64,000 bases of DNA from Aureispira sp. GTDB taxonomy: Bacteria; Bacteroidota; Bacteroidia; Chitinophagales; Saprospiraceae. Of this stretch, positions 15,029 to 31,131 are shown piece by piece. Under the pieces are notes generated by a model that was given only the letters and a program-made list of their open reading frames with translations, was not told the DNA's origin and searched no databases. The DNA is taken from assembly GCA_024222455.1 (NCBI GenBank), contig JAAEPD010000318.1, positions 1-64,000 of the forward strand, read 5' to 3'. The number at the start of each line of letters is the position of its first letter. The first letter of the stretch is position 1. Both the position numbers and the translations under genes were made by a program.

Positions 15029-15580
15029 TTAATTAGATTTTTTAGGAAAAATTACTAAACATACCCATTCAGTCAATAGGAAAAAAGGGAGGAACCAAAT
15101 TAATAAAACAACTCCTCCTACTCCAATATTTTCACAGATAGAATTAAGCCAAGCAGTGCCTACAAATGCTTCGGGTAAGAAAGTGAAAATCATGACAAAG
15201 ATTACAAAAGGTCCGATTCTGTTTATAGCATTATCTCTGGTCATTAATACACCATGGATAACCCAACCATATAGAATGTTTAAACCTAAAAATCCCAATC
15301 CTATGTCTTCATTATAGTCATGGGAAGGTGCTGTCCCAAAGAATATTTCTAAGTCTCCAATCCAAGTTGCAAGTATATAAACAGCAATAGCAAAAAGGAT
15401 ATTGGTATAGAGCCTTGTTTTGGGGCCTACGAATAAATTTTTAGTGCTTCTTAACCATGTTTTAAAGTATTTTAGCACCTTACTATAATGCCAAATTTTA
15501 TCCCAAATACGTTTGAAAAAATTAGGCTTTTTAGGGCTAGGGTCTTTTAGATTTTCTAAATCGTCTAGGATATTAGGCAT
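15029..15580 (-). CDS. Small membrane protein with N-terminal ILDD motif
   Basis: Third gene of an operon with the LRR protein (16070-16828) and the next membrane protein. The 183-residue product begins MPNILDDLENLKDPSPKKP, the acidic motif seen in seven other small membrane proteins of this window. A basic stretch (NFFKRIWDKIWHYSKVLKYF) follows, then about four membrane segments (LFAIAVYILATWI, GLGFLGLNILYGWVIHGVL, IGPFVIFVMIFTFL, GGVVLLIWFLPFFLL). There is no enzyme signature. The motif would lie in the cytoplasm if the positive-inside rule holds. Function unknown. Confidence 0.8.
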   Translation of the reverse strand: MPNILDDLENLKDPSPKKPNFFKRIWDKIWHYSKVLKYFKTWLRSTKNLFVGPKTRLYTNILFAIAVYILATWIGDLEIFFGTAPSHDYNEDIGLGFLGLNILYGWVIHGVLMTRDNAINRIGPFVIFVMIFTFLPEAFVGTAWLNSICENIGVGGVVLLIWFLPFFLLTEWVCLVIFPKKSN

Positions 15581-15589
15581 ATAAAACGT

Positions 15590-16066
15590 TTAGTGTTTTT
15601 TAGGTTGCTTTTTTCGTTTCAAAAGCCAAATATAGCCTTCAAAAAGAAGACAGGCAGGAATTATCCAACAAAATGTAGTAACGAAAACTGGGGCAATATC
15701 CTCTAAATAAAGTAAAATAGGAATAGGATAGAGAATACCTAAAGAAAATACAATCCCCATGCTAATAGCCAACAATAAGATAGCAGGTACCCAGTTTAAA
15801 TCTTTTACATAATATTCTGTAGACCACCCATAGATAATGACCAAAAAGGAAGTAGTACCAACTACAGAAAATTGATCTTCTTGGACATTATTGGGGCCTA
15901 AATTAATGGGAAGTAACTGCTTTAATTCCCACTGGAAGATTATTCCCAGTAGAATATAAAAAAAAAGAGTACTAACCAATATACTCCAACGCCACTTATC
16001 GTGGGAGGTAGCTTGGATCGCTAGCTTAGCTAAAGGTTCGTCTAATATTTCCTCTGGATCAGCCAA
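15590..16066 (-). CDS. Small membrane protein with N-terminal ILDEPL motif, TTG start
   Basis: Middle gene of the LRR/membrane operon. The start is TTG at 16066, just 3 bases beyond the LRR stop codon (TAG GTA TTG on the minus strand), so translation is probably coupled; no ATG or GTG is available in the right place. The protein begins MADPEEILDEPLAKLAIQ, matching the MPKQILDEPLF and MPNQILDEPLF proteins at 22.7 and 25.3 kb. About four hydrophobic segments follow (WSILVSTLFFYILLGIIF, SVVGTTSFLVIIYGW, WVPAILLLAISMGIVFSLGI, VFVTTFCWIIPACLLFEGYI) and a basic tail. Function unknown. Confidence 0.75.
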   Translation of the reverse strand: MADPEEILDEPLAKLAIQATSHDKWRWSILVSTLFFYILLGIIFQWELKQLLPINLGPNNVQEDQFSVVGTTSFLVIIYGWSTEYYVKDLNWVPAILLLAISMGIVFSLGILYPIPILLYLEDIAPVFVTTFCWIIPACLLFEGYIWLLKRKKQPKKH

Positions 16067-16069
16067 TAC

Positions 16070-16828
16070 CTAAAAATAAATGACAGTATTGGGTAGTAGG
16101 TTGCTAATACGATCTTGTTCTCGTAGGGCTAGTTTGTTCCGTTCTAAATACAGAATGCGAAGGTTGCGCAACTGATTGAGTTCAGTAGGTAATTTAGTGA
16201 GTTGGTTTTCGCCAAGATCAAGAATTTCTAAATCATTGAGATGGACTAGTTGCAAAGGTAATTGCTCTAAATGGTTAGCTCTAAGAATTAGCTTTTTTAG
16301 TTTAAATAACTTTATTATAAATCTAGGTATTTCTGTCAACTGATTGTCGATTAACGATAAAATCTCTAGATTTTGGAGTTGTTGTATCGATTTAGGTATT
16401 TCTGTCAAAGAGTTACCAACCAAAGAAAGTTCTTCGAGTTGCGTTAAATTTCCTATTGATTCAGGTACATCTTTTAGTGCATTGTAGTTGACAATCAACT
16501 TGCGTAGTTTAGTCAAAAAACCAATCTCTGTAGGAAGTTCTTTTATGTAATTATGATTGATCGAAAGTTCTTCTAAATCTGTTAAATGTTTGATCTCAGC
16601 AGGAAGAGAAGGTAAAGGCTGATAACTATAGTTTAATGTTTTGATTTTGTTTAAAACATTAATCCATTGATATTCAAAGCACTTGAATAAGCCCTCATGG
16701 TCTCGAACTAAGAGTTGAGCAATTTCATGGTCAACATCTACACCAACACCCTGCATTAGTTGAAACACTAATTCATGGTTAATGGTCTCACTGCTATGAA
16801 GCAGCGATTTGATTTGAGAGTTATTCAT
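16070..16828 (-). CDS. Leucine-rich-repeat protein, 252 aa
   Basis: First gene of an operon with two small ILDD/ILDEP membrane proteins. It has no signal peptide. After a ~75-residue N-terminal region there are about seven LRRs of 23 residues (consensus LxxLPxxIxxLxxLxxLxLxxN), for example LEELSINHNYIKELPTEIG. The last repeat runs into the cap RISNLLPNTVIYF, whose (A/L)LPxTxI pattern recurs at the ends of the other three LRR proteins in this window. LRRs of this type are protein-binding scaffolds. The genetic linkage suggests it acts with the membrane proteins encoded behind it, probably on the cytoplasmic side. Confidence 0.85.
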   Translation of the reverse strand: MNNSQIKSLLHSSETINHELVFQLMQGVGVDVDHEIAQLLVRDHEGLFKCFEYQWINVLNKIKTLNYSYQPLPSLPAEIKHLTDLEELSINHNYIKELPTEIGFLTKLRKLIVNYNALKDVPESIGNLTQLEELSLVGNSLTEIPKSIQQLQNLEILSLIDNQLTEIPRFIIKLFKLKKLILRANHLEQLPLQLVHLNDLEILDLGENQLTKLPTELNQLRNLRILYLERNKLALREQDRISNLLPNTVIYF

Positions 16829-16926
16829 ATCGTAGGCTTTTTAGTTTGGGACTTCCTTAAAGTAGGCTAAATTTATGATTTTGTCAAGCCCTTTTTATCT
16901 TAAGAAATAACTTTTTTTGTCAAACT

Positions 16927-17580
16927 TTACCATTCAAGTAGTTTCAAAAAGTCTGTAGAATGTTTTAGCAAAACCTTGTCTATTGTCTGGCAAGGAGGAC
17001 ATTGGTGACAGCGTATAAGATTATAATTAGAACCACCTTTGGGGTAGCGACAAGACCATGTTAAGGCTAGTAAATCTATTGGCATTGACTTCATTACATC
17101 ATACTTGTACATATCTTTGAGAGGGAATACAATCTTTAGGTCTTGAGGATTTTTCTTGGTGACTAGATAAAGAATTTTTGCAATATGGCTAATTCGATCA
17201 TGGAAACCTTCTTGCAAAAAATCATCAGCAATAGCACCTTCCATGAATTCTTCTATTTCGGGATGGGATAAAATACAACTAGCCGCTGCAAAATTGACCA
17301 CTTCACTATCCCAATGTGGTTGAGGTGCTCCCAACTCGGCATAATTGTATTCTAATTTTCGAAATGTAAAATTATTAATACCATGATTTCGCAACCATTC
17401 CAAAATATTTCGAACAGCTTCTTCTTCTTGAATAGTTCTACTAGCACTAGCAGCATTGATAATATTGACTTTAAAAACAAAATACTCCTGTTCAGGATTT
17501 TGAGTCAAGGTTTGGTAAAGGACGGCTGTACTGTCTACCCCTCCAGAAAAGGGAATGATTGCTTTATATTGCTTTTTCAT
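16927..17580 (-). CDS. QueC-like PP-loop ATPase
   Basis: An N-type ATP pyrophosphatase: the PP-loop SGGVDS is at residues ~11-16 (AIIPFSGGVDSTAVL). Near the C-terminus, SCRYPKGG followed by RCHQCPPCQTID gives the four-cysteine zinc pattern of QueC (7-cyano-7-deazaguanine synthase). The 217-residue length also fits QueC. The middle diverges (NIINAASASRTIQ, GAIADDFLQEGFHDR), so the substrate may not be 7-carboxy-7-deazaguanine. None of QueD, QueE or QueF is nearby. It follows a GNAT gene by 4 bases, implying a shared pathway. Function inferred from fold: adenylation of a substrate before amide or nitrile formation. Confidence 0.75.
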   Translation of the reverse strand: MKKQYKAIIPFSGGVDSTAVLYQTLTQNPEQEYFVFKVNIINAASASRTIQEEEAVRNILEWLRNHGINNFTFRKLEYNYAELGAPQPHWDSEVVNFAAASCILSHPEIEEFMEGAIADDFLQEGFHDRISHIAKILYLVTKKNPQDLKIVFPLKDMYKYDVMKSMPIDLLALTWSCRYPKGGSNYNLIRCHQCPPCQTIDKVLLKHSTDFLKLLEW

Positions 17581-17584
17581 AGTG

Positions 17585-18169
17585 TTAGGAATTGATTTTT
17601 TTTAAATAAATAGTAGAGGAACAGGTGCAAGGAATTGCAGCACAAAGTGAACAAATATATTGTTTTTTGATACTGTCTTCATACCAATAATTGGGTATTG
17701 TTTTTATAGATTCAAACCCACAATGTCTAAATATTTTTCCCATCGATTGTCCAGATTTTTCTTCCCATACAGTCGATAAAATAGCTTCTACATGCGGTTC
17801 TAATAATTCATTACTTAAAGAGACCAAATCTTGTCCAAAACCTTGTCTTTGGAAGTCAGGGTGTATAGCAGAATGTTTTCTTAAGGCAACAATAGCATCA
17901 TCTTTAAACGTTTGCAAAAACCAGGTTCTTGCAGGTCCTTCAAGAAATTGTAAGGAAAGCTCTTTCGCAGAATCAATTAAGGATAAAGAAACTCCTAAAA
18001 CGTGTTGCTCCTGTAGAGAAACTACACCAATGTAGGGTGTTACTAAAAAAGCTTCTATATCCTTTTGAGATAAATAACCTTGCCCAAATTGCTGGTCAAA
18101 AATATCTTTGACCTGAGGAATATGTTGTTGTTCTAATTTTTGAATCTCAATGTTGTGCAGTACAAGCAT
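17585..18169 (-). CDS. GNAT acetyltransferase with C-terminal Cys cluster
   Basis: An acetyl-CoA-dependent N-acyltransferase fold: HSAIHPDFQRQGFGQDLVSL matches the GNAT acetyl-CoA loop (Q/RxxGxG/A), followed by IFRHCGFESI. After the GNAT domain comes an unusual tail YICSLCAAIPCTCSSTIY with a C-x2-C-x4-C-x-C cluster that could bind zinc. It is the first gene of a pair with the QueC-like ATPase (4-base gap). The pairing of an acyltransferase with a PP-loop adenylating enzyme, each with its own cysteine cluster, suggests a small modification pathway. Substrate unknown. Confidence 0.8.
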   Translation of the reverse strand: MLVLHNIEIQKLEQQHIPQVKDIFDQQFGQGYLSQKDIEAFLVTPYIGVVSLQEQHVLGVSLSLIDSAKELSLQFLEGPARTWFLQTFKDDAIVALRKHSAIHPDFQRQGFGQDLVSLSNELLEPHVEAILSTVWEEKSGQSMGKIFRHCGFESIKTIPNYWYEDSIKKQYICSLCAAIPCTCSSTIYLKKINS

Positions 18170-18269
18170 TCTAAAATTTATACTTTATTGAAATATTACT
18201 TATTGATAGTCAAGTTGTTATTGTTTGTAGTCAATTTCTTGCGAAAATTTAATAAACTATAGAATAAAA

Positions 18270-20060
18270 CTAATCTATTAAGTTTACTTTTTTCATAAAA
18301 AACTGTAGTCCAAAAGCGCTAACTAAGGCTAAAACGGCACAGATACCAGCAGTATTCCATTCTTTTAGGAGCAGTTTTCCTGTCAAGAAAAGCATACTAT
18401 AGGTAAGCACAATACCACTCAACCAACAAAGTAATAAATCTGCAATACCATAAGGCTTAGGTGCTGTACTGATATGACTATCCAAAATTGTATTATCCAT
18501 ATTGCCTACATTTGGAGCATCTTGCTGATGAACTTTTTGCCAAAAGTTTTGAAGTGTTTTTGCATCTGTAGGAGGTGTAAGAAAAGTGACGGCTAACCAA
18601 ACTACTGTAGTGAATAAAACCGTTATTAGAAATGCTTCTGGAAAGGCAATATCAGTAAAATAAAGAATTGTAGTAGAAAAGAAAGGAGCTATGGTTGCAG
18701 CTATTTCACTCCAAGCATTGATCCTAGCCCAATACCAACGCAAGATCAAGACAAGTCCTAGACCTGCACCACATTGCATAATAAAACCCCATGCCCCCGA
18801 AATGCTGTTTACTTTAGTGCTTACAATCAAGCCTATTACCATCAAAACTAGTGTAAAAATTCTAGAAGAAAATACATAGTGTTTGTCACTCTCATTAGGG
18901 CTAATAAATCGTTTGTATAGGTCATTAACAACATAGCTAGCACCCCAATTGAGCTGTGTAGAAATGGTACTCATGTAAGCCGCCAAAAAGGCAACTAACA
19001 AAAGGCCTTGCAAACCAGAAGGCAAGAAGTCTCGCATAGCATAGACATAGCCTAACTTAGCATCAGCACCATCATTGGCGCTCAATTCTGGATATAAAAC
19101 TACTGCAGCTAGTGCTACTAAAATCCAAGCCCAAGGACGTATACAGTAGTGTGCTATTTGGAAAAACAGGGTAGCATAAACAGCGTCTTTATCTGAGCGT
19201 GTACTCATCATACGTTGAGCAATATAGCCACCTCCTCCAGGTTCTGCTCCTGGATACCAACTGGCCCACCATTGCACACCTGCATAAGCAAAAAATGCCC
19301 CAAAAGAGAGTACTAAACTATTGCCTGTACTAGCTATCGAATTATCATTATCTATAGTTGGAAAGAAGTTTAGAATACCTGGTTTTATAGCTTCAGCTTG
19401 TTCTTTTAGGTTATCAATACCTCCAATTTCGGGAGAAGTAATGACCAAATATGCTAAAATAGCACAGCCAACCATAGCCACCACAAATTGTATAGCATCT
19501 GTAACAGCAACCCCCTGTATTCCTGAGAAGGAAGTATATATAGCAGCCATGAGCATAGCTAATCCTGTATACATCAGTGCTGTCATAGGATCTAAGCCAA
19601 AAAAGACCGTTAGTAAGGATTGTAGAGCTACATTGACCCATGCAATCACAATCACATTCATAACCACACCTAAATAGATGGCCTTGAAACCACGCAGAAA
19701 CTTAGCTGGCTCGCCACTATATCTAAGTTCTATTAACTCTACCTCTGTCATTACACCTGAACGTTGCCACATACGAGCAAAGAAAAAAGTAGTGAGCATA
19801 CCACCTGCCAAAAAGCTCCACCATAGCCAGTTGCCTGCTATTCCGTTTTGTCCAACCAATTCTGTAACTGCTAATGGTGTATCTGCTGCAAATGTAGTAG
19901 CTACCATGGATACACCAGCTAAGAGCCAATGCATGTTTCGACCTCCCAAAAAGAAGCTTTCCATGTCCTTACCTGATTTTTTGGTAAAGGATAAACCGAC
20001 TCCAAATATAACTAAGAGGAATCCTATGATGATAAACCAATCTAATGTAGAGAGTTGCAT
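18270..20060 (-). CDS. Sodium:solute symporter (SSS) family transporter
   Basis: A 596-residue inner-membrane cotransporter of the SSS (SLC5-like) family. The start LDWFIIIGFLLVIFGVGL and SFFLGGRNMHWLLAGVSMVA are characteristic, as are SFSGIQGVAVTDAIQFVVAM (the TGGmxaVvwTD region of the family) and AAYMSTISTQLNWGASYVVN. About 13-15 membrane segments can be drawn. Bacteroidota relatives are annotated only as SSS family and substrate prediction is unsafe (sugars, amino acids or solutes). It is monocistronic; its upstream region is interrupted by the MITE-like element at 20163-20326. Confidence 0.93.
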   Translation of the reverse strand: MQLSTLDWFIIIGFLLVIFGVGLSFTKKSGKDMESFFLGGRNMHWLLAGVSMVATTFAADTPLAVTELVGQNGIAGNWLWWSFLAGGMLTTFFFARMWQRSGVMTEVELIELRYSGEPAKFLRGFKAIYLGVVMNVIVIAWVNVALQSLLTVFFGLDPMTALMYTGLAMLMAAIYTSFSGIQGVAVTDAIQFVVAMVGCAILAYLVITSPEIGGIDNLKEQAEAIKPGILNFFPTIDNDNSIASTGNSLVLSFGAFFAYAGVQWWASWYPGAEPGGGGYIAQRMMSTRSDKDAVYATLFFQIAHYCIRPWAWILVALAAVVLYPELSANDGADAKLGYVYAMRDFLPSGLQGLLLVAFLAAYMSTISTQLNWGASYVVNDLYKRFISPNESDKHYVFSSRIFTLVLMVIGLIVSTKVNSISGAWGFIMQCGAGLGLVLILRWYWARINAWSEIAATIAPFFSTTILYFTDIAFPEAFLITVLFTTVVWLAVTFLTPPTDAKTLQNFWQKVHQQDAPNVGNMDNTILDSHISTAPKPYGIADLLLCWLSGIVLTYSMLFLTGKLLLKEWNTAGICAVLALVSAFGLQFFMKKVNLID

Positions 20061-20162
20061 ATATTTATATTGTGCTTAATATTGTTAATTATAAAGGGCA
20101 ATAATAGAAAATTATAAACAGTCAGCACTAAAAATTTGCTAAAAAAAAAGTATTATTACAAC

Positions 20163-20326
20163 TTAGGAATGGCAAAGAAATAACTTACAACAGTTTAAAA
20201 TACTCTTTTAAATCCTAGCCGCATTATTTTTCTCAGTAATAGCTAGGCTATTCCTTCTAAAAATGCTTTGCTAAGACTTAAAATAACTACTTAATCTGTC
20301 ACAGATTATTTCTTTGCCATTCCTTA
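20163..20326. mobile_element. MITE-like 158-bp element with 18-bp inverted repeats and TTA target duplication
   Basis: Perfect 18-bp terminal inverted repeats, GGAATGGCAAAGAAATAA at 20166-20183 and its complement at 20306-20323, enclose 122 bases with no ORF. The element is flanked on both sides by TTA (20163-20165 and 20324-20326), as expected of a 3-bp target duplication. Length, perfect ends, AT-rich interior and lack of a transposase fit a miniature inverted-repeat element. A TNA duplication is used by some IS5-group transposases, but I cannot name a parent. It sits between the divergent symporter and cupin genes and may affect both promoters. An internal dyad AATAGC/GCTATT is also present. 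This element accounts for about half of the 308-base gap between those genes; I see nothing else certain there. Confidence 0.6.
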
Positions 20327-20368
20327 CCATAGAATAAAGTATTTATACACCAAACACCTAGAATCGTT

Positions 20369-20797
20369 ATGCGTTATTGTGTCCTTTTATTACTGCTGAT
20401 TTTTTCTGTGAATACTCAGGCTCAAGTTGATATTAAAAAATTTGGAGATGTTGTGGCTGATGAGGAATATGAGAATGTGAAAGTAATGCCTATTCACTCT
20501 GATCGAAATACTAGTGTATTTGTAATTTTTGTAAAAAAAGAGGTTAAAAAACATTTCCACCAATACCATACAGAGGTGGTTACTGTTTTGGAGGGAAAAG
20601 GAGAGATGTTTATGAATGGGAAAGTTTTTGATGTGAAAGTAGGAGATTGTATAGTGATACCTCCAGGTACCGAACATGCTGTGATTACACGTAGTGGAAA
20701 ACCACTAAAAGTACTCTCTGTACAGTCCCCAGAGTTTGAAGGTGAAGATCGTATTTATACAGAAGACGAAGACGAAGAGGAAGAAGACGAAGATTAA
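20369..20797 (+). CDS. Secreted cupin-domain protein with acidic tail
   Basis: A signal peptide (residues 1-18, NTQAQ cleavage region) precedes a single cupin barrel. Cupin motif 1 is KKHFHQYHTEVVTVLEGKGE (HxH-type histidines and glutamate as metal ligands) and motif 2 is GDCIVIPPGTEHAV (second-histidine region). The C-terminus is an acidic run (TEDEDEEEEDED). Single-domain cupins with this layout bind a metal and range from isomerases to dioxygenases or storage proteins; none can be chosen. Export to the periplasm is likely. It begins 43 bases after the MITE-like element, so that element's right end may carry or displace its promoter. Two tandem hairpins follow. Confidence 0.85.
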   Translation: MRYCVLLLLLIFSVNTQAQVDIKKFGDVVADEEYENVKVMPIHSDRNTSVFVIFVKKEVKKHFHQYHTEVVTVLEGKGEMFMNGKVFDVKVGDCIVIPPGTEHAVITRSGKPLKVLSVQSPEFEGEDRIYTEDEDEEEEDED

Positions 20798-20813
20798 ACT
20801 AAATAAATAGAAT

Positions 20814-20839
20814 AAGCCAAGCAGCGATTTGGCTTTTTT
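20814..20839 (+). terminator. Intrinsic terminator after the cupin gene
   Basis: A 7-bp stem (AAGCCAA paired with TTGGCTT) runs directly into a T run, 17 bases after the cupin stop codon. Confidence 0.7.
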
Positions 20840-20895
20840 AAAGGTTATCAATATTGAATATAATTTTTTCAATATTGATAACCTTTCTTTTTTTT
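20840..20895 (+). terminator. Second, stronger hairpin terminator before the barrel pseudogene
   Basis: A perfect 19-bp inverted repeat (arms 20840-20858 and 20868-20886, starting AAAGGTTATCAATATTGAA) with a 9-base loop is followed by C and eight T. Having two terminators in series is unusual and would insulate the broken barrel gene from cupin transcription. Confidence 0.8.
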
Positions 20896-20947
20896 ATGAC
20901 AATAAAGAGCTTTACATCATACTATTATATAATTAAATTTTTTTCAG

Positions 20948-21613
20948 ATGAAAAGCACTATGTTATTAACTTGGGTAATCGTAATTACCTTTGCCTCTGT
21001 ACTTTGCACTACCACTGTTCAGGCTCAAATCAAATTAGGAGTAGAAGCTGGAGGCAACTATTCTCAAATCTTTTTTAATTACGACAAGCGCATTCCTGAT
21101 AGTTCAAAAACTATAAAATCTTTTAAGCCCAAAATAGGGTTTAAGGGAGGAGTAACTTTTGAAAATGAATTCAATCAATATTTAGCTATTAAAGTAGGAA
21201 TTCTCTATTCACTTTGAGGTGCTTCTAAGGCTGTAGATAAAGGGAATGGAGTTATGAAAGACATCAATCAACACTTATTAATACTTCCTGTATTGTTCAG
21301 TGTGAAACCTATTGAACAGTTTCATGTTAATGTGGGAATGGAATATGGATTTGTTTTGTCTAATGACCGATCTGGAGTTCCAGTTAGAAATGTGTTTGAT
21401 TTTAGGGTAAGGGTAGCAGGAGGATTAACTTATCAAGTTCTGCCTTATTTAGGAATCAATGCCTATTGTTCTTATGATATTAGAGCTAGTAACCCTATAT
21501 ATTACACAGATGCTCAAGGTAATGATATTGGTACCTCTTCTGAAAACATGTTGGTGGCTAGTCTTGGAGTAAATTATACCTTCAAGTCTTGGAGTAAGAA
21601 ATCGAGAGACTAA
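20948..21613 (+). pseudogene. PorT-like outer-membrane beta-barrel gene interrupted by one in-frame TGA
   Basis: ATG at 20948 starts a signal peptide (residues 1-26, ending TTVQAQ) and a barrel-like sequence IKLGVEAGGNYSQIF. TGA at 21215-21217 stops it after 89 codons (…GILYSL). The same frame then continues without any other stop as GASKAVDKGNGVMKDINQHL to TAA at 21611, with barrel strands (FHVNVGMEYGFVLS, FRVRVAGGLTYQVLPYLGIN) and a terminal aromatic-rich strand VASLGVNYTF. The combined 221 residues are the normal size of PorT-type 8-stranded barrels. One substitution (for example AGA to TGA) explains the lesion. The downstream half is still open, so the event is recent, or it is a sequencing error. 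Confidence 0.75.
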
Positions 21614-21722
21614 TGTGGTCTATAAAGGGAGCATTTTAGGGAGAAGGTATAGCTATAGTTGTAATTGAGTGTTCAATTTTGTAAATTGTAAACTTGACTA
21701 AACCGCCTTAGCCCAACAGAAT

Positions 21723-22707: not shown

Positions 22708-23223
22708 ATGCCTAAACAAATATTAGATGAACCTTTATTTGATGTAGAATTAGATGAGAAGCAAATAAGGCTAACTCAACTGAAAAGGCGATGCTTAGTA
22801 ATTTGGGCTGTTTGTATAGGTACTTGGGCAGCTGTTCAATTTCTTTTTGTATTTATATTGGACTACTGGCCAGAAGCAGCTAGAGTTATGATGCCTACTT
22901 TTTATATAAATGTATTTGTATTTGGAGCTATGTTTACACCAATCCTTCTAAAACCTCATAAGCCAAAGAAGACAAATTTATTGTGGAATATAGTGCAGCA
23001 TATTCTTGTTTTTGGAGCATTGTATGCAATTGTAGTTCTTTGTTTTGCGGGAGCAAGCTTACTATTGGCTCTGTTGGGATCAAAACTTTCTTTGTTGAAC
23101 CTGAATCAATATTGGACAATTTACCTGAGTTTTTTATTGTCTAGTGGGGGACTTATGTTAGGAGTCTTTTTCTTCCTAAAACCTGAATTAAGTTATACTG
23201 TTGATACTCCATCAGAAGAATAG
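22708..23223 (+). CDS. Small membrane protein with N-terminal ILDEPLF motif
   Basis: I place the start at ATG 22708, giving MPKQILDEPLFDVELDEKQI, because the paralog at 25311 starts MPNQILDEPLF; an earlier ATG at 22693 would overlap the hydrolase. After the acidic motif and a basic stretch (TQLKRR) there are four membrane segments (LVIWAVCIGTWAAVQFLFVF, MMPTFYINVFVFGAMFT, ILVFGALYAIVVLCFAGASL, IYLSFLLSSGGLMLGVFFFL). The C-terminus is short. It belongs to the eight-member motif family found in this window. Function unknown. Confidence 0.8.
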   Translation: MPKQILDEPLFDVELDEKQIRLTQLKRRCLVIWAVCIGTWAAVQFLFVFILDYWPEAARVMMPTFYINVFVFGAMFTPILLKPHKPKKTNLLWNIVQHILVFGALYAIVVLCFAGASLLLALLGSKLSLLNLNQYWTIYLSFLLSSGGLMLGVFFFLKPELSYTVDTPSEE

Positions 23224-23477
23224 TCTTATTGCAGATTTATCCTTTTTCATCCTTCTAATATTAATCTATTCGTAATAATGTCTAGTATTTACAAATGATA
23301 TATCGCTATTATTTTTTTATTTTAATAGGTTTGCCTTTTTTTGTGGGTGCTTAATCAATAAGTTATAGCTTATAGGTTTATTGGACATATCCTAAACATA
23401 GTATTATAGCTTGTCTATTGTTTAATTATGGAATGAATAAACGCTAGATATTAGCAATAGAAGCTGAGTTTTTTACA

Positions 23478-23687: not shown

Positions 23688-24277
23688 TGGAAATAGCTTG
23701 GTTTGACGTAGATGTCTATAAACTGTTATTTAGACTTGTAATCAATATTATTTTTGTTACACTTATTGCTCGTGGTATCTATTATCCGAATAATAATAAT
23801 AAAGACTATTTATTCAGTTACTACATAATTGGGTTCGTTACCTTCTTTCTTTGTTTTAGTCTCAAAAAATTAGATATAGACACAGGAATGGGGCTTGGTT
23901 TGTTTGCCATTTTTGGAATTATTCGATACAGAACGAACACCATTGCTATTAAGGAAATGACCTATGTCTTTGCTGTTATTGGGCTGAGTGTGATCAATGC
24001 TTTAGCGGCAAATAAAATTTCCATAACCGAGCTGCTTATTACCAATATCTTTTTGGCAACACTTATGGGCATATTTGAATATGCATGGCTGGCTAAACAT
24101 CAAACGCATCAAACAACTATTGTTGTTCCTCTAAAAAATGTCGAATCCCTACAAATCAAGGATCTAGAACAACAATTGAAAGAAACTACTGATTTAGATA
24201 TTAGTTATATTACAATTGAAAAGATAAATTACTCTAATAAGAGTGTTCAAGTCCATGTGTTTTATCTAAAAAAATGA
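23687..24277 (+). CDS. DUF4956 membrane protein
   Basis: A 196-residue inner-membrane protein with four helices. The family signature is GLGLFAIFGIIRYRTNTIAI followed by KEMTYVFAVIGLSVINALAA; DUF4956 proteins carry this FxIFgIiRyRT motif. A soluble C-terminal domain follows (residues ~145-196, with IKDLEQQLKETTDLDIS). In other genomes DUF4956 genes lie next to VTC-type polyphosphate polymerases or CotH-like genes, but neither is visible here. The start overlaps the previous stop (TAATG). The role is unknown. Confidence 0.88.
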   Translation: MEIAWFDVDVYKLLFRLVINIIFVTLIARGIYYPNNNNKDYLFSYYIIGFVTFFLCFSLKKLDIDTGMGLGLFAIFGIIRYRTNTIAIKEMTYVFAVIGLSVINALAANKISITELLITNIFLATLMGIFEYAWLAKHQTHQTTIVVPLKNVESLQIKDLEQQLKETTDLDISYITIEKINYSNKSVQVHVFYLKK

Positions 24278-24501
24278 TGGAGTATCTCTTCGAGTATAAC
24301 TTTACTTGATTAGTTCAAAGTAACTCTGACATCTAGAGTTTTAAGGTGGAGCAAATGATTCATTTGTTGTTTAGATATGGTATTGTAGTGTTGCAATGAT
24401 CAAAGGAATAATAATGTTAGGTATATATTATATACTTCGTATGAATATGCCTGATGTAGCTCAATAACACACTCAATAACTTGCTTCTAATTTAACGATT
24501 T

Positions 24502-25305
24502 ATGCAACTCAAAATGTTCCTTAGCATTCTAATATTAAGTTGTTTGGCTACATTAGAAGTCAATGCTCAGATTCCTGTATTGAGTCGTGCAGTTATGCTA
24601 GAAGACTGCACCTCTTATGACGAGTTGAGCAACTTTGTGAAAATAGGAGGAGGTTTGACTGTCTTACTTTGGACAGCTACTTATATCCTAATGGCTTTAC
24701 AAGCATTTCGATCCAAGCGTTATGGATTACCTATTGTGGCTTTGTCCATTATGTGGGGCTATGAGTTTTGCTTTACTTTTTTGTACAGTTTTGATGGTTC
24801 GTTGTCTTTAGATATAATAGAGGCTATTTGGTTTGCATTAGATACCCTGCTTTTGGTACAAGTATTTTTGTATTATCGCCCAGATTGGGTTGCTGAGCCA
24901 TGGGGAAATATTAGTTTGCAACGGATTTGGCCTATAGGCCTATTATTGATGCTTTTATTTAGTGTTTTAGGCTGTTCTGCTGTGATAAAATATTTTATGA
25001 TAGGGCCTAATTTAGCTTTTTTAGTCTGTCTAATCTTATCAGCTTCCTATATCCCATTTTTGCTGAGTCGACCAACTCTTGATGGCGTTTCTAATACCGC
25101 TATGTATACACGAGTATTGGCAGGTCTGCTGACCTTAATTGTTACAGTTTTAGGCTTTCCTTTTCAAAACTCTTTTGAGCTAGATTTGTGTGCTCGATCT
25201 TCCAATAATCTGCTTTCTGTATTTATTCTTTCTACTACTGTAGTTTTGGATTTTATTGCTTTGTATATCATGAGGTCTGCTATGCAGCAAAATTCTAAAA
25301 ACTAA
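24502..25305 (+). CDS. Polytopic membrane protein, possible Pyr4/PaxB-type terpene-cyclase-like protein
   Basis: A signal-peptide-like N-terminus (residues 1-23, EVNAQ) is followed by seven hydrophobic segments over 267 residues. Two neighbouring segments, ALSIMWGYEFCFTFLYSF and IIEAIWFALDTLLLVQVFLYY, resemble the glutamate and aspartate helices of the Pyr4/PaxB integral membrane terpene cyclases (WE…Y, then W..lD). That assignment rests on motif memory and is uncertain; no prenyltransferase gene is near. The ATG at 24502 is the only reasonable start. The next gene starts 5 bases after its stop, so they form an operon. Confidence 0.55.
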   Translation: MQLKMFLSILILSCLATLEVNAQIPVLSRAVMLEDCTSYDELSNFVKIGGGLTVLLWTATYILMALQAFRSKRYGLPIVALSIMWGYEFCFTFLYSFDGSLSLDIIEAIWFALDTLLLVQVFLYYRPDWVAEPWGNISLQRIWPIGLLLMLLFSVLGCSAVIKYFMIGPNLAFLVCLILSASYIPFLLSRPTLDGVSNTAMYTRVLAGLLTLIVTVLGFPFQNSFELDLCARSSNNLLSVFILSTTVVLDFIALYIMRSAMQQNSKN

Positions 25306-25310
25306 GCCCT

Positions 25311-25766
25311 ATGCCCAATCAGATTTTAGATGAGCCTTTATTTAGTAAGAAAAAGGAACTAAATTTAGCTCAGTTTAAGATACAATTATTAGCATTTTGG
25401 TTGACCTATTTAGTAGGGTGGGCTATTGTACAGTTATATGTTGTAGTGGAATGGTCTGATGTCCCTAAATCATATTTTTTAGCTTTTTATACAGCGATTG
25501 TGTTTAGTATAATAGCGATGGTATATGGTATCAAAAATAAAAAAAACTCATTATGGAGAACAATAGTAGATCTAACTTGGATGTTGTGTCTATTTACTGT
25601 CATTCTAGATCTAGTCTTGATAAATCCAGTAAAAGTTTTAGAATATTTTTTTATAACTCTAATGAGATTAAGCCTGTATTGGGGAATGGCTATTAGCATA
25701 ATTCTAATTAGTGGAAGTTGGGGATTATGGGTATATTTTTCTTTTAAAAAGGAATTAAAACTATAA
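25311..25766 (+). CDS. Small membrane protein with N-terminal ILDEPLF motif
   Basis: Paralog of the 22708-23223 product: MPNQILDEPLFSKKKELNLA against MPKQILDEPLF there. It has 151 residues. Four membrane segments follow a basic stretch (LLAFWLTYLVGWAIVQLYVV, YFLAFYTAIVFSIIAMVYGI, TWMLCLFTVILDLVLI, LYWGMAISIILISGSWGLW). It is co-transcribed with the polytopic protein upstream (5-base gap). It overlaps the convergent methyltransferase by 6 bases at the 3' ends. Function unknown. Confidence 0.82.
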   Translation: MPNQILDEPLFSKKKELNLAQFKIQLLAFWLTYLVGWAIVQLYVVVEWSDVPKSYFLAFYTAIVFSIIAMVYGIKNKKNSLWRTIVDLTWMLCLFTVILDLVLINPVKVLEYFFITLMRLSLYWGMAISIILISGSWGLWVYFSFKKELKL

Positions 25767-26921
25767 AGTAAGCAAACTCTCCAAGTAATGTTCTTCTATT
25801 CCAAACTCAGATTTTAGGGTATCTATTTTTTCTTGATAGGGTTCTTTGTTAATATTAGCATTAGGTTGTTTGATAGCTGTGATCATTAAGTTTTTGGCAG
25901 TATGTTCTGTAGAGATAAACTCAAAAACTTTGGTTTTGTAGCCATGAGCCTCCAACAGCAATGCACGAATACCATCTGTAATAATCTCTGCTTGACGTTC
26001 TTCTAGTATACCATTTTTCAAGATAGGTTGCATAACCCCTTTACAGCTCATTTGTTTACGAACCTGTTTGTGGCAACAGGGGGCAACAACTATCAATTGA
26101 GCATCGGCTTTTATGCCCTTAGCAATAGCAATATCTGTAGCAATATCGCAGGCATGCAAGGCGATCAAAATATCGATTTTGTCGTTATCATAATCCATAA
26201 TATCTTGAGCTACAAAACTCAATCCTCCCCAACCTAAATCGGCTGCCTGGCTATTACAAAATTCTACTAAATGTTCACGCAATTCAATGCCTGTAATCTC
26301 CGCTTTTAGCTGTTTTTGTTGGTACAAATATTGGTATAGAGCAAAAGTCAAATATCCTTTGCCACAGCCCATGTCTACTATCTTTGGTGCCTGAGGTAGA
26401 GCTATCTGCTGAATAAGCCCAGACATGATTTCTACATACTTATTGATCTGTTTGAATTTATCTTGATGTGCATGCAAGACTCGACCATTGGAAGAAATTC
26501 CCAAGTTACTTAGGAAAGCTGTTTCTGGAGCGATTAGATACTGCTTTTTCTTATTGTGTGCGGTACTTGGGGCTTGTATTGTTGTTGGTTTTTTGCTGCG
26601 TAAATGTGCTTTGCGCTTTTTGTTGTATTGTAGCGTGAAATCATTGCTAGTGGTGAGTAAGTTAGCTATAAGGAAATCCTTGCCTAACGTATTTTTCAAC
26701 TCTACTAAGGCACTGTCTATAGTATGATTTTTGACAATATCTTTAGTGTTATACCGAAAGGTAAACGATAGTTGAGCTTCTCCTTTTATTAGAATTTTGC
26801 GGATATAGATATTTTTGAGTTCCGTTTCTTTTTGAACACATTTACTCAGTGTCAATTTTACGAATTGTTGCTGCTGCCAACTCTTTAGGAGTTGTTCTAA
26901 AAACTGTTCGAGTACATCCAC
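25761..26921 (-). CDS. SAM-dependent methyltransferase, TRMT13/GSTCD-like
   Basis: A cytoplasmic methyltransferase of 386 residues. The class I fold is shown by KIVDMGCGKGYLTFALYQYL (SAM motif I) and TGIELREHLVEFC. LIALHACDIATDIAI then VVAPCCHKQVRKQ is the ALHaCd…APCCHh pattern of the TRMT13, GSTCD and METTL25 group, some of which modify RNA. The N-terminal ~130 residues are a separate region rich in basic residues (KKRKAHLRSKKPTTIQ), compatible with RNA binding. The start is GTG at 26921, overlapping the GNAT stop by one base (TAGTG). Third gene of the operon 28153 to 25761. Confidence 0.85.
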   Translation of the reverse strand: MDVLEQFLEQLLKSWQQQQFVKLTLSKCVQKETELKNIYIRKILIKGEAQLSFTFRYNTKDIVKNHTIDSALVELKNTLGKDFLIANLLTTSNDFTLQYNKKRKAHLRSKKPTTIQAPSTAHNKKKQYLIAPETAFLSNLGISSNGRVLHAHQDKFKQINKYVEIMSGLIQQIALPQAPKIVDMGCGKGYLTFALYQYLYQQKQLKAEITGIELREHLVEFCNSQAADLGWGGLSFVAQDIMDYDNDKIDILIALHACDIATDIAIAKGIKADAQLIVVAPCCHKQVRKQMSCKGVMQPILKNGILEERQAEIITDGIRALLLEAHGYKTKVFEFISTEHTAKNLMITAIKQPNANINKEPYQEKIDTLKSEFGIEEHYLESLLTL

Positions 26922-27400
26922 TAGCTTAATATTTTTTTGTATTCTAAATCCATCCCACCGGCATGATTTGGGGTAGTCCCCACGTATTCAAACTCTAGGT
27001 TTTCTATAATACGTTTAGACCCAAAGTTAGCATTATCTACAATAGCGATCAATTCGCTTAGCTCTAATTTTTTTGCCATGTTAATCAACTCTTCTGCTAT
27101 GGCTGTTCCATAACCCTTTTTCCAATAGCTTTGTACTACCCGAAATCCAATATCAGCAGCATGTTTAGCAATCGGAATAAGAGCACCTACACCAATAAAT
27201 TCTTTCTGATCTAAGCATTTCCAGATTCCTCCATATTGTTGTGCACTAAAATTGTTGACTAATCTAGCTACTTCTTGTTGGCTATCTTCATAGCTCAGAG
27301 CTTGGCCACTAATATACTGCATCACGGCAGGATTGCCAGTCAATTGATGGTAGTAGGGAGCATCATCTAAGTGAAGTGGATGTAAAGTGATTTGTAGCAT
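26921..27400 (-). CDS. GNAT N-acetyltransferase, RimJ/RimL-like
   Basis: A 159-residue acetyltransferase. LHPLHLDDAPYYHQLTGNPA is the RimJ/RimL-type start, and RVVQSYWKKGYGTAIAEELI holds the acetyl-CoA-binding Q/RxxGxG/A-like motif. NFGSKRIIENLEFEYVG is the usual conserved C-terminal part. Substrates of this class are protein or small-molecule amines and cannot be told here. It sits between the DUF2310 gene (4-base gap) and the methyltransferase (1-base overlap), indicating one transcript. Confidence 0.88.
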   Translation of the reverse strand: MLQITLHPLHLDDAPYYHQLTGNPAVMQYISGQALSYEDSQQEVARLVNNFSAQQYGGIWKCLDQKEFIGVGALIPIAKHAADIGFRVVQSYWKKGYGTAIAEELINMAKKLELSELIAIVDNANFGSKRIIENLEFEYVGTTPNHAGGMDLEYKKILS

Positions 27401-27403
27401 AAA

Positions 27404-28153
27404 TTAGGATCTTGTAGATAAATTAGAAAGCAAGTTGCAGTCATCACATTTAAAATCAAATAAATGGTGTAATTGTTTATCTAAGTACCAATCTTTATGG
27501 CAACTAGGGCATTTTCGAGCTTTATCCTGCTTTTCTGATATTTTCCGATAGTTATATAGATAATAATAAACAGGTTTTTGAATGAGTTGAGTTAATAAAC
27601 GAGCTTCTGCTCTACCTGAAATACTGAGGGCGCTATCTACTTTTGACATCTGCCCCAACCCAAAACGTTCACCAACAGTACAATTCATTTGCAAAGTATC
27701 ACAAGCAACATAATTGCTCTCCCAGCTCAATAAGGAGGAATAATCCTCTGTATTGCCTAACCTATAAAGAGGCACTTCCCCAAAACAATCTCCACAGTGA
27801 AGTGGTGAACCTAGTTTAAGGTAATTTGTGTGTAATATATAATAAGAAGGGGTAGAGCAGGAGCAATTGCTGTTTTCTAGCTCAACCTCATGTCCCAAAT
27901 GTTGTATAGTTAAGCTGTTGCCTAAAACTTCTTTTTTAGCTAAAACATATTTATTGGCATATAGATCTTTTAGAGACTCGTTTTCGGGAGTCATGACCAC
28001 TGTATAAAGCTTAGCATTTTCTTTGAATATAGGATATTCTTTACCTATAATCTGACCATTTCTTCTAAGTAAGCCAATCAAAAGATTAAGGTTGTCATAA
28101 GCTTCTTCTTCTTGATCTGGGGTGTATTGTAAACTAACAATTTGAGTGAACAT
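27404..28153 (-). CDS. DUF2310 zinc-ribbon protein
   Basis: First gene of the operon with GNAT and methyltransferase genes. PLHCGDCFGEVPLYRL followed by YSSLLSWESNYVACDTLQMNC is characteristic of DUF2310 (COG4068), described as a predicted zinc-ribbon nucleic-acid-binding family. Further cysteine pairs are ARKCPSCHKDWY and FKCDDCN at the C-terminus. The 249-residue length is typical. Operon membership beside an RNA-type methyltransferase is compatible with a role in RNA biology, but that is inference. A TATCTTTG box and a terminator lie upstream, at 28203-28240. Confidence 0.88.
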   Translation of the reverse strand: MFTQIVSLQYTPDQEEEAYDNLNLLIGLLRRNGQIIGKEYPIFKENAKLYTVVMTPENESLKDLYANKYVLAKKEVLGNSLTIQHLGHEVELENSNCSCSTPSYYILHTNYLKLGSPLHCGDCFGEVPLYRLGNTEDYSSLLSWESNYVACDTLQMNCTVGERFGLGQMSKVDSALSISGRAEARLLTQLIQKPVYYYLYNYRKISEKQDKARKCPSCHKDWYLDKQLHHLFDFKCDDCNLLSNLSTRS

Positions 28154-28202
28154 AGCTTTTTACTTCTTACAGTACTAAAAATAATAGTTTGCTAACAAAA
28201 AC

Positions 28203-28231
28203 AGCGACTAAAGCTAGTTGCTTTAATCGCT
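28203..28231 (-). terminator. Intrinsic terminator after the OmpA-family gene
   Basis: On the minus strand, a 12-bp stem (AGCGATTAAAGC paired with GCTTTAGTCGCT, one G-U pair, 5-base loop AACTA) is followed by GTTTTTG. It lies 27 bases after the OmpA stop. Confidence 0.8.
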
Positions 28232-28232
28232 G

Positions 28233-28240
28233 CAAAGATA
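28233..28240 (-). promoter_or_regulatory. Minus-7 box (TATCTTTG) overlapping the terminator region
   Basis: The minus strand reads TATCTTTG (then CA), an exact TAnnTTTG box about 80 bases before the DUF2310 start. Transcription would begin about 7 bases downstream, inside the 5' arm of the OmpA terminator. I see no good minus-33 TTG. Confidence 0.45.
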
Positions 28241-28257
28241 TGCTAATTTATTAGATA

Positions 28258-29472
28258 TTAATCTCTATCTGTATAAGGTTTTACTTCGTTAGAATGTTCT
28301 ACCTTTGTATTTTCTGCATCTAAACGAGTAACTGTAAACTCTACACGTCTATTCATTTGACGACCTTCAATTGTTTCGTTATCTCCAATTGGTTTCTCTT
28401 CACCAAAACCAATGTATTTTAAGCGACTTTCATCTATTCCATACTCAACTAAGTATTCATATACCGAACGTGTACGGTTTTCCGAAAGACGTTGGTTGTA
28501 GCTATCTCCACCACGACTATCTGTATGTCCATGAATTTCTATTTCCATAGATGGATATTTTTCTAATAACTCAATTAGTTCACCAAGTTGCTCATTAGAT
28601 TCTTCTAATAGGTCCCATTTGGCAGTTTCAAAGAAAACTCTATCTAATTGAATAACGGTTCCTACAGCAATTTCTGGCTCCGGTTCTGGTTCTGGTTCCG
28701 GCTCTGGCTCTGGCTCTGGTGCTGGTTGTACAGCTCGGCAAAGCATTACATCATCTATAAGATAATAAGAGTTTCTATAATAAGCCTCATCTACAGTTTT
28801 AGTGCCTTCATCAGGTGCCTCTACCATTTTGGTTTCGTCGTTGCCAAAGAAGTTTCCAAGAATCATATATTCGCAACGGTTAGGCGATTTGATTATACCC
28901 GAAATACGTACCCACTCACGACCTTTTGCATTAATAACCTCACCATAGTTGAAATCCGGCTTTATATCAGTAAGTGGTTCCCAACTATCTTCTCTTAAGC
29001 GAGTAGGAGAAAGGACTATACCAATATTATTGGAGACAAACTTTGATAAACGTGCACGACAAACCCAAAATTCGAAGTAATACTCTTCATTCTTTATAGT
29101 TGCTTTGTCTAACTTAACTTGCATATATTCACGATAAGTATCAGAACGCTCAGATTCTGGATTATGAGTGAGTATAGCAGTCATTTTATAGCCAGAATGT
29201 GGCTTATCTAACTTAATACCTTTTTTGGCAGCTTGTTTTATTTGCGAAGGCAAAGCAATTTTTACGTCAGGAGTCGTTTTTGTTGGGCTTTCCCAATTGA
29301 CCATATTATAACGAAAGACTCCAGAACCATCCACGTCATCAGCAGGGGCTTTTCCTTGGAGTTTTTCAAAATCAGGGTTTGGAACTAAGTTTGGTCCATG
29401 ACCCTCTGGTGGTTGGGCATAGGTAGTAAGGCCCATTAAAATACTTGTGCTAAGCGTAATTAACTTTTTCAT
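28258..29472 (-). CDS. OmpA-family outer-membrane protein
   Basis: A signal peptide (residues 1-19, ending TYAQ) is followed by a ~240-residue N-terminal domain resembling carbohydrate-binding-like jelly rolls (LVPNPDFEKLQG start; YYFEFWVCRA). A low-complexity EP linker runs about residues 251-268. The C-terminal OmpA domain shows VFFETAKWDLLEES, MEIEIHGHTDSRGGDSYNQR, LSENRTRSVYEYLVEYGI, IGFGEEKPI and GRQMNRRVEFTV, which bind diaminopimelate in peptidoglycan. It links the outer membrane or a surface layer to the wall. Monocistronic, with its terminator at 28203-28231. Confidence 0.93.
   Translation of the reverse strand: MKKLITLSTSILMGLTTYAQPPEGHGPNLVPNPDFEKLQGKAPADDVDGSGVFRYNMVNWESPTKTTPDVKIALPSQIKQAAKKGIKLDKPHSGYKMTAILTHNPESERSDTYREYMQVKLDKATIKNEEYYFEFWVCRARLSKFVSNNIGIVLSPTRLREDSWEPLTDIKPDFNYGEVINAKGREWVRISGIIKSPNRCEYMILGNFFGNDETKMVEAPDEGTKTVDEAYYRNSYYLIDDVMLCRAVQPAPEPEPEPEPEPEPEPEIAVGTVIQLDRVFFETAKWDLLEESNEQLGELIELLEKYPSMEIEIHGHTDSRGGDSYNQRLSENRTRSVYEYLVEYGIDESRLKYIGFGEEKPIGDNETIEGRQMNRRVEFTVTRLDAENTKVEHSNEVKPYTDRD
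28674..28725 (+). repeat. Hexanucleotide repeat encoding the Glu-Pro linker
   Basis: About nine degenerate copies of a six-base unit (CTGGYT on +) encode alternating Glu and Pro in the OmpA-family protein. Copy-number change would alter linker length without breaking the frame. Confidence 0.7.
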
Positions 29473-29689
29473 AAATAATCTATTGTTTTATAATTCCTGT
29501 GCAAAGGATTTTTTAGAGATGCTAAATATTAAAATACAAAAAAACTTAGACAAAAAGAAAGCCAAGTTCTTGTATTTTAATTGTTAGACGAAGTTTTTAG
29601 TTTAAAGTCACTGTATAGAAGGAACCGATTCGTTATATTGAATGTATAGTGTGGTAGACTATAGTAATAATTCTAATAATAATAAAGTT

Positions 29690-30025
29690 ATGAATAAGGA
29701 TGATGATATTCTTGATGACTTGAATGATCTGAATGAACCACCTCCTCCTACAGCAGAACAAATAAAGAGAAGAGAGCGATGGTCTAGTAATATTTACTAT
29801 TTAGTCCTGTTTGCAGGATTTATGGGGGTGATATTTATCTTGAATAAGCGTAGTGGAAGTCGTAATAGGGAAGAAATGAGAAGCCTAAATGCCACGTTTA
29901 AGGCTGTTCAAACCTTAAAAAAGATAGAGATAGATGTAGATGAGATAGCCAGACAACAAAGAGTAGTAGATAGTTTGATGAACAGCCCTACTGTAAGAAG
30001 GTTTAGGACTAGAAATCCTCAGTAA
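29690..30025 (+). CDS. Small single-pass membrane protein with N-terminal ILDD motif (tandem member 1)
   Basis: I start at ATG 29690 (MNKDDDILDDLNDLNEPPPP), since the three tandem neighbours start with the same motif; an earlier in-frame ATG at 29642 adds a low-complexity prefix. After the acidic motif and a basic stretch (QIKRRERW) comes one membrane helix (IYYLVLFAGFMGVIFIL), then a basic, helical C-terminal tail that should lie in the periplasm if the N-terminus is cytoplasmic. It is the first of four similar genes. No enzyme motif; function unknown. Confidence 0.75.
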   Translation: MNKDDDILDDLNDLNEPPPPTAEQIKRRERWSSNIYYLVLFAGFMGVIFILNKRSGSRNREEMRSLNATFKAVQTLKKIEIDVDEIARQQRVVDSLMNSPTVRRFRTRNPQ

Positions 30026-30050
30026 TAAATATTAGAATAAGCGTTTTTTT

Positions 30051-30428
30051 ATGCAAGATGATGATGACATATTAGATGATATGGATGGGTTGAACGATCC
30101 TCCTTTTAGTTCAGAACCCTTTCCAAAAGAAGAAAAGGGGCATGGAGATGGATCTTTAGCTTCTATCGGAATGTTCTTTTTGATATTTGTAGGGTTGATT
30201 GTGTTTTCTAAAGCTAATAGATCGAGGTCGAATAGTGCTAAAATTGATTTAGATCGAATGAACAGGTTAATTAAATCTACTCAAAGTATAGATTACCAAC
30301 CAATCAATAGAGAAAAAGTGGAGCAGATAGAGAATGCACAAAAAAGATTAAAAAGGACTTTAGATAGCATAACAAAGGAAAGAAACAAACACCTGTTTTT
30401 GGAAGAATATGAAGCAAAAAAAAAGTAA
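30051..30428 (+). CDS. Small single-pass membrane protein with ILDD motif (tandem member 2)
   Basis: MQDDDDILDDMDGLNDPPFS at the N-terminus, a charged linker, one membrane helix (LASIGMFFLIFVGLIVFS) and a long helical tail. The tail segment RMNRLIKSTQSIDYQPIN closely matches member 3 (RIDRLIKSTQNINYKPIN), so the two are paralogs by duplication. The stop overlaps the start of member 3 (TAATG at 30426-30430), implying coupled translation. Function unknown. Confidence 0.78.
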   Translation: MQDDDDILDDMDGLNDPPFSSEPFPKEEKGHGDGSLASIGMFFLIFVGLIVFSKANRSRSNSAKIDLDRMNRLIKSTQSIDYQPINREKVEQIENAQKRLKRTLDSITKERNKHLFLEEYEAKKK

Positions 30429-30799
30429 TGAAAAACCAAGAAGATGATTTATTAGATGACTTGGAAGGTTTAAATGATCCTCCTCCTCCAACTACCAAAC
30501 AGTTGGAGCGTAGAGAATTTTGGTTGTCTGCAGTGGTGTACTCTTTTATATTTATAGGAGGGATTGCACTACTGGTATTCAATAAACCTAAATCGAGGAA
30601 AGCGGATTTGGACATGGAGCGAATTGATAGATTGATTAAATCTACACAAAACATAAATTACAAGCCAATCAATATAGATGAACTTAAGAGAATGCAAGAG
30701 GCTGTAGAACAATCCAATGTTATGTTAGATAGTTTAAGAATGGAAAAGTTGGATATAAAAGCTCTAGAAAAGGAATATAAAGCGAGGCAAAAAGAATGA
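30428..30799 (+). CDS. Small single-pass membrane protein with ILDD motif (tandem member 3)
   Basis: MKNQEDDLLDDLEGLNDPPP starts the protein; a basic stretch (TKQLERREFW) precedes one helix (AVVYSFIFIGGIALLVF). The C-terminal half is a predicted coiled coil (IDELKRMQEAVEQSN, then MEKLDIKALEKEYKARQ). The tail is similar to that of member 2. Its stop overlaps the next start as ATGA (30796-30799). The motif form LLDDLEGLNDPPPP is the most complete version in the window. Confidence 0.78.
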   Translation: MKNQEDDLLDDLEGLNDPPPPTTKQLERREFWLSAVVYSFIFIGGIALLVFNKPKSRKADLDMERIDRLIKSTQNINYKPINIDELKRMQEAVEQSNVMLDSLRMEKLDIKALEKEYKARQKE

Positions 30800-31131
30800 A
30801 AGAATACCAAGATCATGATATCTTAGATGATATGGAGGGGTTGAATGATAGACCTCAACCTAAGAAAGATGAACGAAAGATAAAAAGGAAGAAGGTTGAT
30901 CATATTGGCTTAACACGATATAGTATAATGATTGGGCTTTTAGTGATGAGTATGGTCTTGTTGCAGCAAAAATCACCTCCTGAACCTGCTAAGATTCGAT
31001 TCCCTATGATAGATGCTAATAGAATTGACCTTGAGAGAGCTCAAAAATCATTGGAAAGAATAGAAAAACAGCGCTTAGATTATGAGCGTAAAGTCGAATT
31101 CCAACAGATACAGGATAGCCTATCAAAATAA
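30796..31131 (+). CDS. Small single-pass membrane protein with ILDD motif (tandem member 4)
   Basis: MKEYQDHDILDDMEGLNDRP starts the protein, followed by a strongly basic stretch (KKDERKIKRKKVDH), a helix (YSIMIGLLVMSMVLLQQ) and a helical tail with RAQKSLERIEKQRLDYERKV. The tail diverges from members 2 and 3, while the N-terminal motif is conserved, which argues that the motif is the selected part. It is the last gene of the tandem unit; a new promoter box follows at 31180. Confidence 0.78.
   Translation: MKEYQDHDILDDMEGLNDRPQPKKDERKIKRKKVDHIGLTRYSIMIGLLVMSMVLLQQKSPPEPAKIRFPMIDANRIDLERAQKSLERIEKQRLDYERKVEFQQIQDSLSK

Follow-up and report, generated by a model that had tools for sequence, protein, structure and literature searches.

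An ILD motif shared by otherwise dissimilar small membrane proteins across an Aureispira genome

The stretch of DNA analyzed here, referred to as the window, comprises positions 1 to 64,000 of contig JAAEPD010000318.1 from the Aureispira sp. assembly GCA_024222455.1, and it encodes eight small proteins that carry a short acidic element built on Ile-Leu-Asp (ILD) close to their N termini. The original prediction had listed these eight open reading frames with their N-terminal peptides, and we found both at the coordinates given, the N termini of B (TTG start) and E (start at 29642 or 29690, giving 127 aa if 29642) being less certain than the others. The eight proteins, A to H, are as follows.

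15029..15580, minus strand: motif protein A, 183 aa, about four transmembrane helices, start MPNILDDLENLKDP, ILDD at 15560-15571
15590..16066, minus strand: motif protein B, 158 aa, about three to four transmembrane helices, TTG start, MADPEEILDEPLAKL, motif at 16037-16048
22708..23223, plus strand: motif protein C, 171 aa, MPKQILDEPLF, motif at 22720-22731, homolog of D over its full length
25311..25766, plus strand: motif protein D, 151 aa, about four transmembrane helices, MPNQILDEPLF, motif at 25323-25334
29690..30025, plus strand: motif protein E, 111 aa, one transmembrane helix and a C-terminal tail, MNKDDDILDDLNDLNEPP, motif at 29708-29719
30051..30428, plus strand: motif protein F, 125 aa, one transmembrane helix, MQDDDDILDDMDGLNDPP, motif at 30069-30080
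30428..30799, plus strand: motif protein G, 123 aa, one transmembrane helix, MKNQEDDLLDDLEGLNDPP, motif at 30449-30460
30796..31131, plus strand: motif protein H, 111 aa, one transmembrane helix, MKEYQDHDILDDMEGLNDRP, motif at 30820-30831

A Kyte-Doolittle scan found one to four hydrophobic helices in all eight proteins, as had been proposed. The claim that their bodies are largely dissimilar was overstated. C and D are homologous over their full length (29% identity over 162 aa, E = 4e-15), and E to H form one tandem family of one-helix proteins (BLASTP E values between 2e-4 and 7e-16 for the pairs detected, and the alignment). BLASTP detects no similarity between A and B, and neither resembles the remaining window proteins. 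Judged by sequence, the eight are four groups, not eight families. The shared starts within C/D and within E-H prove nothing alone because these proteins are ordinary paralogs, and since the window starts are thus partly paralogy, the question was extended to the whole genome. None of the eight gave anything above cutoff in Pfam or NCBIfam; TssO was considered as an identity for E and dropped, its match (E = 0.028) falling far below cutoff. We detected no homologs of E-H or C/D in 60 related genomes, none of E-H in 84,980 species genomes, and none of C/D in viral contigs.

The assembly is fragmented (7.76 Mb in 683 contigs, 97.6% complete, 4.2% contamination, G+C content of ∼35%). A profile of the N-terminal motif recovered five window copies and nothing beyond the window when run against this genome; as it was too short for HMMER, we turned to degenerate DNA patterns and checked the reading frame of their matches. 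Exhaustive pattern searches, with the contexts of the matches read, revealed no fewer than 36 membrane proteins with the motif, most of them small, which are spread over 15 loci and 11 contigs and so go beyond the four loci first named in the window; this is a minimum, since the patterns covered certain spellings only. N-terminal [IL]LDEP is found genome-wide in B, C, and D only, and the other [IL]LDEP matches were discarded, most of those in real genes being ABC-ATPase Walker B sequences and the others unrelated proteins or spurious frames. The pattern [DENK][ILF][LF]DD[LIVMF] gave 43 DNA matches, whose contexts exposed more carriers, and a relaxed Met-Pro pattern gave 81 genome matches compared to 23 for its reversed control. 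Outside the window, the carriers are the following.

C278 carriers: N-terminal MEILDDLELE and MELLDDLGIG, with tandem variants MEVLDEQ, MQVLDNF, and MELLDNQ
C245 carrier: MPNNDILDDLELE
C341 carriers: MPSYNNILDDIS, with tandem variants MPHNVLDSL and MPKNILDNL, and a further variant, MPQITLDDF, outside the 36 count
C33 carrier: MPKLLDDLQTI
C406 carrier: MSLELLDDF, a one-helix protein with a zinc-ribbon-like segment
C227 carriers: array of eight tandem, diverged PnuC-like six-helix proteins with the motif in the linker between halves, mid-loop DILDD, other copies ILDA, LLDN, ILDS, ILDDL, and VLDDF
C238 carrier: C-terminal KHQEDILDDL at the stop
C546 carriers: C-terminal DILDDDFDLLDDLIK at the stop, the neighboring paralog ending in ENDDILDN
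C359 carriers: MPPDILDS, MPHDILDS, and MPHNILDS, from the relaxed Met-Pro search
C636 carriers: MPNNVLDD, twice, from the relaxed Met-Pro search
Extra copy on the window's contig, 12 kb past the window: MPKNILDSPLEDI, from the relaxed Met-Pro search

When 35 of these proteins were aligned on the core, the motif took the form [D/N/E/Q]-[I/V/L]-L-D-[D/S/N/E] followed by [L/F/P/D/...], with MPNNVLDDDLLG, MPNQILDEPLF, and DDILDDL among its variants. The position before the core is D in 15 proteins, N in 8, E in 7, and Q in 3. Then follow I (23), L (6), or V (6), and L and D in all 35, an invariance that is partly by construction because the alignment is anchored on LD. The residue after LD is D in 20, S in 6, E in 4, N in 4, and A in 1, and L, F, P, and D predominate next. 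The motif is N-terminal in most carriers, lies in the middle loop of the eight tandem PnuC-like proteins, and is C-terminal in three. Its commonest N-terminal form is M-P-x-[N/D/Q]-[I/V]-L-D, and Met-Pro starts occur in 14 of the 27 N-terminal carriers, a figure somewhat inflated by carriers that came from the Met-Pro search, compared to 17 of 560 sampled genes.

Within the paralog families, the motif is better conserved than its surroundings. The six invariant columns of the C278 family include M1, L4, and D5, the eight of the C227 family include L108 and D109, and the nine of E-H include D7, L9, D10, D11, and more in the motif segment. Across the 35 genes, [IVL]LD is encoded by 20 different 9-mers, and this variety of nucleotide spellings argues for protein-level selection rather than recent copying of one DNA segment.

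The strict peptide [DENK][ILF][LF]DD[LIVMF] occurs in frame in 29 distinct genes, 14 of which encode membrane proteins of less than 300 aa (16 of 31 when two genes whose start was missed by the gene finder are added), while the permuted peptide [DENK][ILF]D[LF]D[LIVMF] falls in such proteins in only 1 case of 17 (Fisher p = 0.0015). Membrane proteins of this size account for 8% of the sampled proteome residues, so the expectation that the motif is commoner in membrane proteins than in the proteome at large was confirmed. Carriers inside one array are not independent. A count of ∼10 loci instead of proteins gives a binomial p of ∼7e-6. A background sample of ∼650 kb taken from elsewhere in the genome contained a single copy of the strict peptide among 190,045 residues, and all 29 of its small multi-helix proteins lacked the peptide. 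Given this rarity, the motif is no general habit of this genome's membrane proteins.

The form MPx[ND][IV]LD has 8 matches in this genome, all of them motif membrane proteins, and 42 in 298 related genomes. The number expected here is ∼0.24, assuming a mean relative genome size of 4.55 Mb, which places this genome at ∼30-fold the rate of its relatives with a Poisson p of ∼2e-10 that is optimistic, the pattern having been derived from this genome. The contrast in context is independent of that derivation: 8 of 8 matches here are motif membrane proteins, and among the subset of the relatives' matches whose contexts were read, 0 of 29 lies at the genuine start of a small membrane protein. In a search of 120 genomes with ATGCC..ILD[DE], five of the six matches here were carriers, and the relatives' matches that were read included one membrane protein only, which is MscS-like. 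MPxxILDEPL gave 38 matches and no motif membrane proteins in 84,980 species genomes, a collection from which near relatives may have been excluded. None of these searches points to motif membrane proteins in related genomes.

An all-against-all BLASTP comparison linked only tandem paralogs and, in addition, A with H through a 17-residue match that covers the motif alone. When the C227 and E-H families were compared to C278 with hhalign, only the motif and the residues following it aligned, with 3-4% probability, and C/D against C278 aligned nothing. Body-wide similarity was found only within C/D, E-H, C278, C227, and C359/C636; the one-helix, two-helix, four-helix, PnuC-like, and zinc-ribbon carriers have no detectable relation outside the motif. 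The eight window proteins are thus not full-length homologs of one family by BLASTP or hhalign. The original description, in which membrane proteins that are otherwise unrelated have a short element in common, stands, while the element itself is neither strictly N-terminal nor restricted to ILDD/ILDEP, since it has an [IVL]LD core and also occupies loops and C termini. The proteins of the C227 array match PnuC (PF04973) with E values of ∼1e-5, and their 25.4 and 25.9 bits are under the gathering cutoff of 27.3. In ∼27 PnuC homologs obtained from related genomes with the C227 profile, the motif is absent from the linker between the halves, one of them having ILDA elsewhere. Because the PnuC relatives are without the linker motif, the simplest explanation is that a known fold acquired it within this lineage.

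N-terminal carriers have 2 to 13 lysines and arginines in the tail that precedes helix 1 and usually 0 to 2 in the first loop after it. The positive-inside rule links segments rich in these residues to the cytoplasmic side, and the N-terminal motif tail is therefore probably cytoplasmic (N-in), being rich in lysine and arginine where the first outer loop is poor. Structural models of D (mean predicted local distance difference test score [pLDDT] of 61) and of a C278 member (mean pLDDT of 69) are both weak; residues 1 to 9 of the former and the first ten of the latter have pLDDT values below 50, which suggests disorder, and the motif residues form the lowest-scoring segment in each. The C278 model showed no significant fold match in Foldseek.

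In our view, the ILD element is probably a short linear docking motif, specific to this lineage, to which a single partner in the cytoplasm or at the membrane periphery binds. This reading is favored because a short conserved element is carried by unrelated proteins, near a terminus or between helices, on segments that are probably cytoplasmic and apparently flexible. That the tag occurs on many unrelated families and was not found on such proteins in ∼300 related genomes suggests that one shared cell component recognizes all carriers, although the single partner is something we infer. The unrelated small membrane proteins would display the motif on a flexible tail or loop at the cytoplasmic side, the shared cytoplasmic or peripheral partner would bind the displayed element, and binding may cluster the carriers, place or sort them, or assemble them. 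The residues accepted behind LD (D, S, N, or E), often trailed by a proline, would be compatible with ILD as an extended strand that leads into a helix N-cap.

Several observations weigh against a docking motif. No partner was found and no neighboring gene recurs between loci, the conservation of the motif rests on paralogs in the sole genome of its genus that was compared, the gene calls and helix predictions are home-made, and the two structural models are weak. A few soluble proteins have like starts, such as the C540 cupin (MNILDDL) and a C226 protein (MDNILDEV), which may be due to chance.

Could the motif be the most recognizable remnant of common ancestry, or of a copied N-terminal coding segment? 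C/D, E-H, C278, C227, and C359/C636 are each paralog families, and several four-helix carriers with the MPx[ND][IV]LD start could be remote relatives, but the carriers have 1, 2, 3, 4, and 6 helices, the motif may be N-terminal, internal, or C-terminal with profiles that align nothing else, and its synonymous codons are diverse. The PnuC-like array, whose relatives lack the motif, refutes this explanation in part, and we regard it as unlikely. Still harder to credit is chance or compositional bias, by which acidic N termini would simply be frequent in a proteome rich in D, E, I, and L. The strict pattern is indeed not enriched at the DNA level (43 matches against 50 for the reversed control), yet its in-frame carriers concentrate in small membrane proteins in a way that the permuted peptide does not, the MPx[ND][IV]LD form exceeds the relatives' rate, and the relaxed Met-Pro pattern exceeds its reversed control; of all the explanations, we give this one the least credence.

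Turnover offers a different account, in which the motif is a degron for a protease or adaptor and the carriers are short-lived. The motif is short, apparently exposed, and partly N-terminal, and removal of Met from a Met-Pro start exposes an N-terminal proline, as would happen in the Met-Pro carriers. The mid-loop copies in the eight PnuC-like proteins are unusable as a terminal tag, however, and the first residues vary among carriers (MP, ME, MK, MQ, MS, and MA), which leaves a degron improbable. A targeting or insertion signal, read during synthesis by a lineage-specific chaperone or insertase, would agree with all carriers but one or two being membrane proteins and with the motif often preceding the first helix, but in three carriers it comes after the last helix, in eight it lies between the halves, and most membrane proteins are without it, as are all 29 of the small ones sampled outside the window. 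We find this very improbable. The occurrence of one motif at the N terminus, in a loop, and at the C terminus argues against a terminal degron and an insertion signal alike. Of the sorting, docking, or degradation roles raised by the original prediction, docking is retained as the interpretation that we prefer, and the copies in loops make degradation through a terminal tag improbable.

The genes surrounding the carriers differ among loci, and B, for example, lies beside a leucine-rich repeat protein gene (window 16070-16828, minus strand; PF23598, E = 3e-25). This gene is directly upstream of B and A and apparently cotranscribed with them; segments like the N terminus of its product head other genes near motif loci, and the family seems abundant genome-wide. 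A seven-helix protein with a Pyr4-like terpene cyclase match (window 24502-25305, plus strand; PF25129, E = 3e-15) ends 5 bases before D. The region L132:1999-8492 covers the C227 array and, after it, an inward-rectifier potassium channel of the KirBac type (PF17655, E = 2e-13). The C540 cupin (L319:6200-6532), which reads MNILDDLNF if started at 6236 and may be a soluble carrier or a chance match, lies just upstream of an RND efflux operon. The C359/C636 carriers have two helices, a soluble portion at the C terminus, and no Pfam match; a by-eye likeness to bacterial PH-domain proteins was not supported by Pfam. PADLOC profiles matched none of ten proteins (nine carriers and one neighbor), and neither these profiles nor the viral contigs supported phage or defense readings. 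Elsewhere in the window are a two-gene unit (196 and 791 aa, window 37060-40176) without a Pfam match, of which a diverged second copy is found ∼33 kb further on the same contig (L451:7088-10210), and two adjacent, very similar three-helix proteins (MKYLIFKTLAGKNITVKYVANQSLK..., window 51200-52447, minus strand) without the motif.

With the carrier list, the consensus, and natural variants in hand, a receptor can be sought with one peptide. The motif would give a handle on dozens of uncharacterized membrane proteins and would illustrate how such an element can spread through the genome of a single lineage.

Eukaryotic cells are characterized by linear motifs that commit whole sets of membrane proteins to a shared fate, and we know of no bacterial case in which many unrelated membrane proteins share one linear motif; no description of the present one was found in open-access papers. 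Eukaryotic motifs that invite comparison are the acidic dileucine [DE]xxxL[LI], DxxLL, and the paxillin LD motif LDxLLxxL. The sorting motifs among them are likewise short, acidic and leucine-containing, and located in the cytoplasmic tails of unrelated membrane proteins, and the paxillin motif is an amphipathic LD helix. In every case this is a resemblance only: the core [IVL]LD[DSNE] fits none of these three consensus sequences, and no adaptor or clathrin-like partner came to light, though no search was aimed at one. Eukaryotic adaptor proteins read tail motifs as the proposed receptor would read the ILD tag, and we raise as a tentative possibility, rather less likely than not in our judgment, a sorting or assembly system specific to this bacterial lineage, in which one cytoplasmic receptor reads this tag on dozens of unrelated, rapidly expanding small membrane proteins.

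Among known protein families, PnuC (NMN_transporter, PF04973) is the one to which a carrier group can be compared. The match of the C227 array to its profile is weak; the matches in related genomes have the typical PnuC length and helices, and the array differs from PnuC by its extended, motif-bearing linker and its tandem expansion. In bacteria, a short peptide on a flexible tail serves as a docking handle in the C-terminal tip of E. coli SSB (SSB-Ct; PMC10164576). One tip-bearing protein is met by many readers in the case of SSB-Ct, whereas here many membrane proteins share the tip, a likeness that we draw without claiming a match in sequence.

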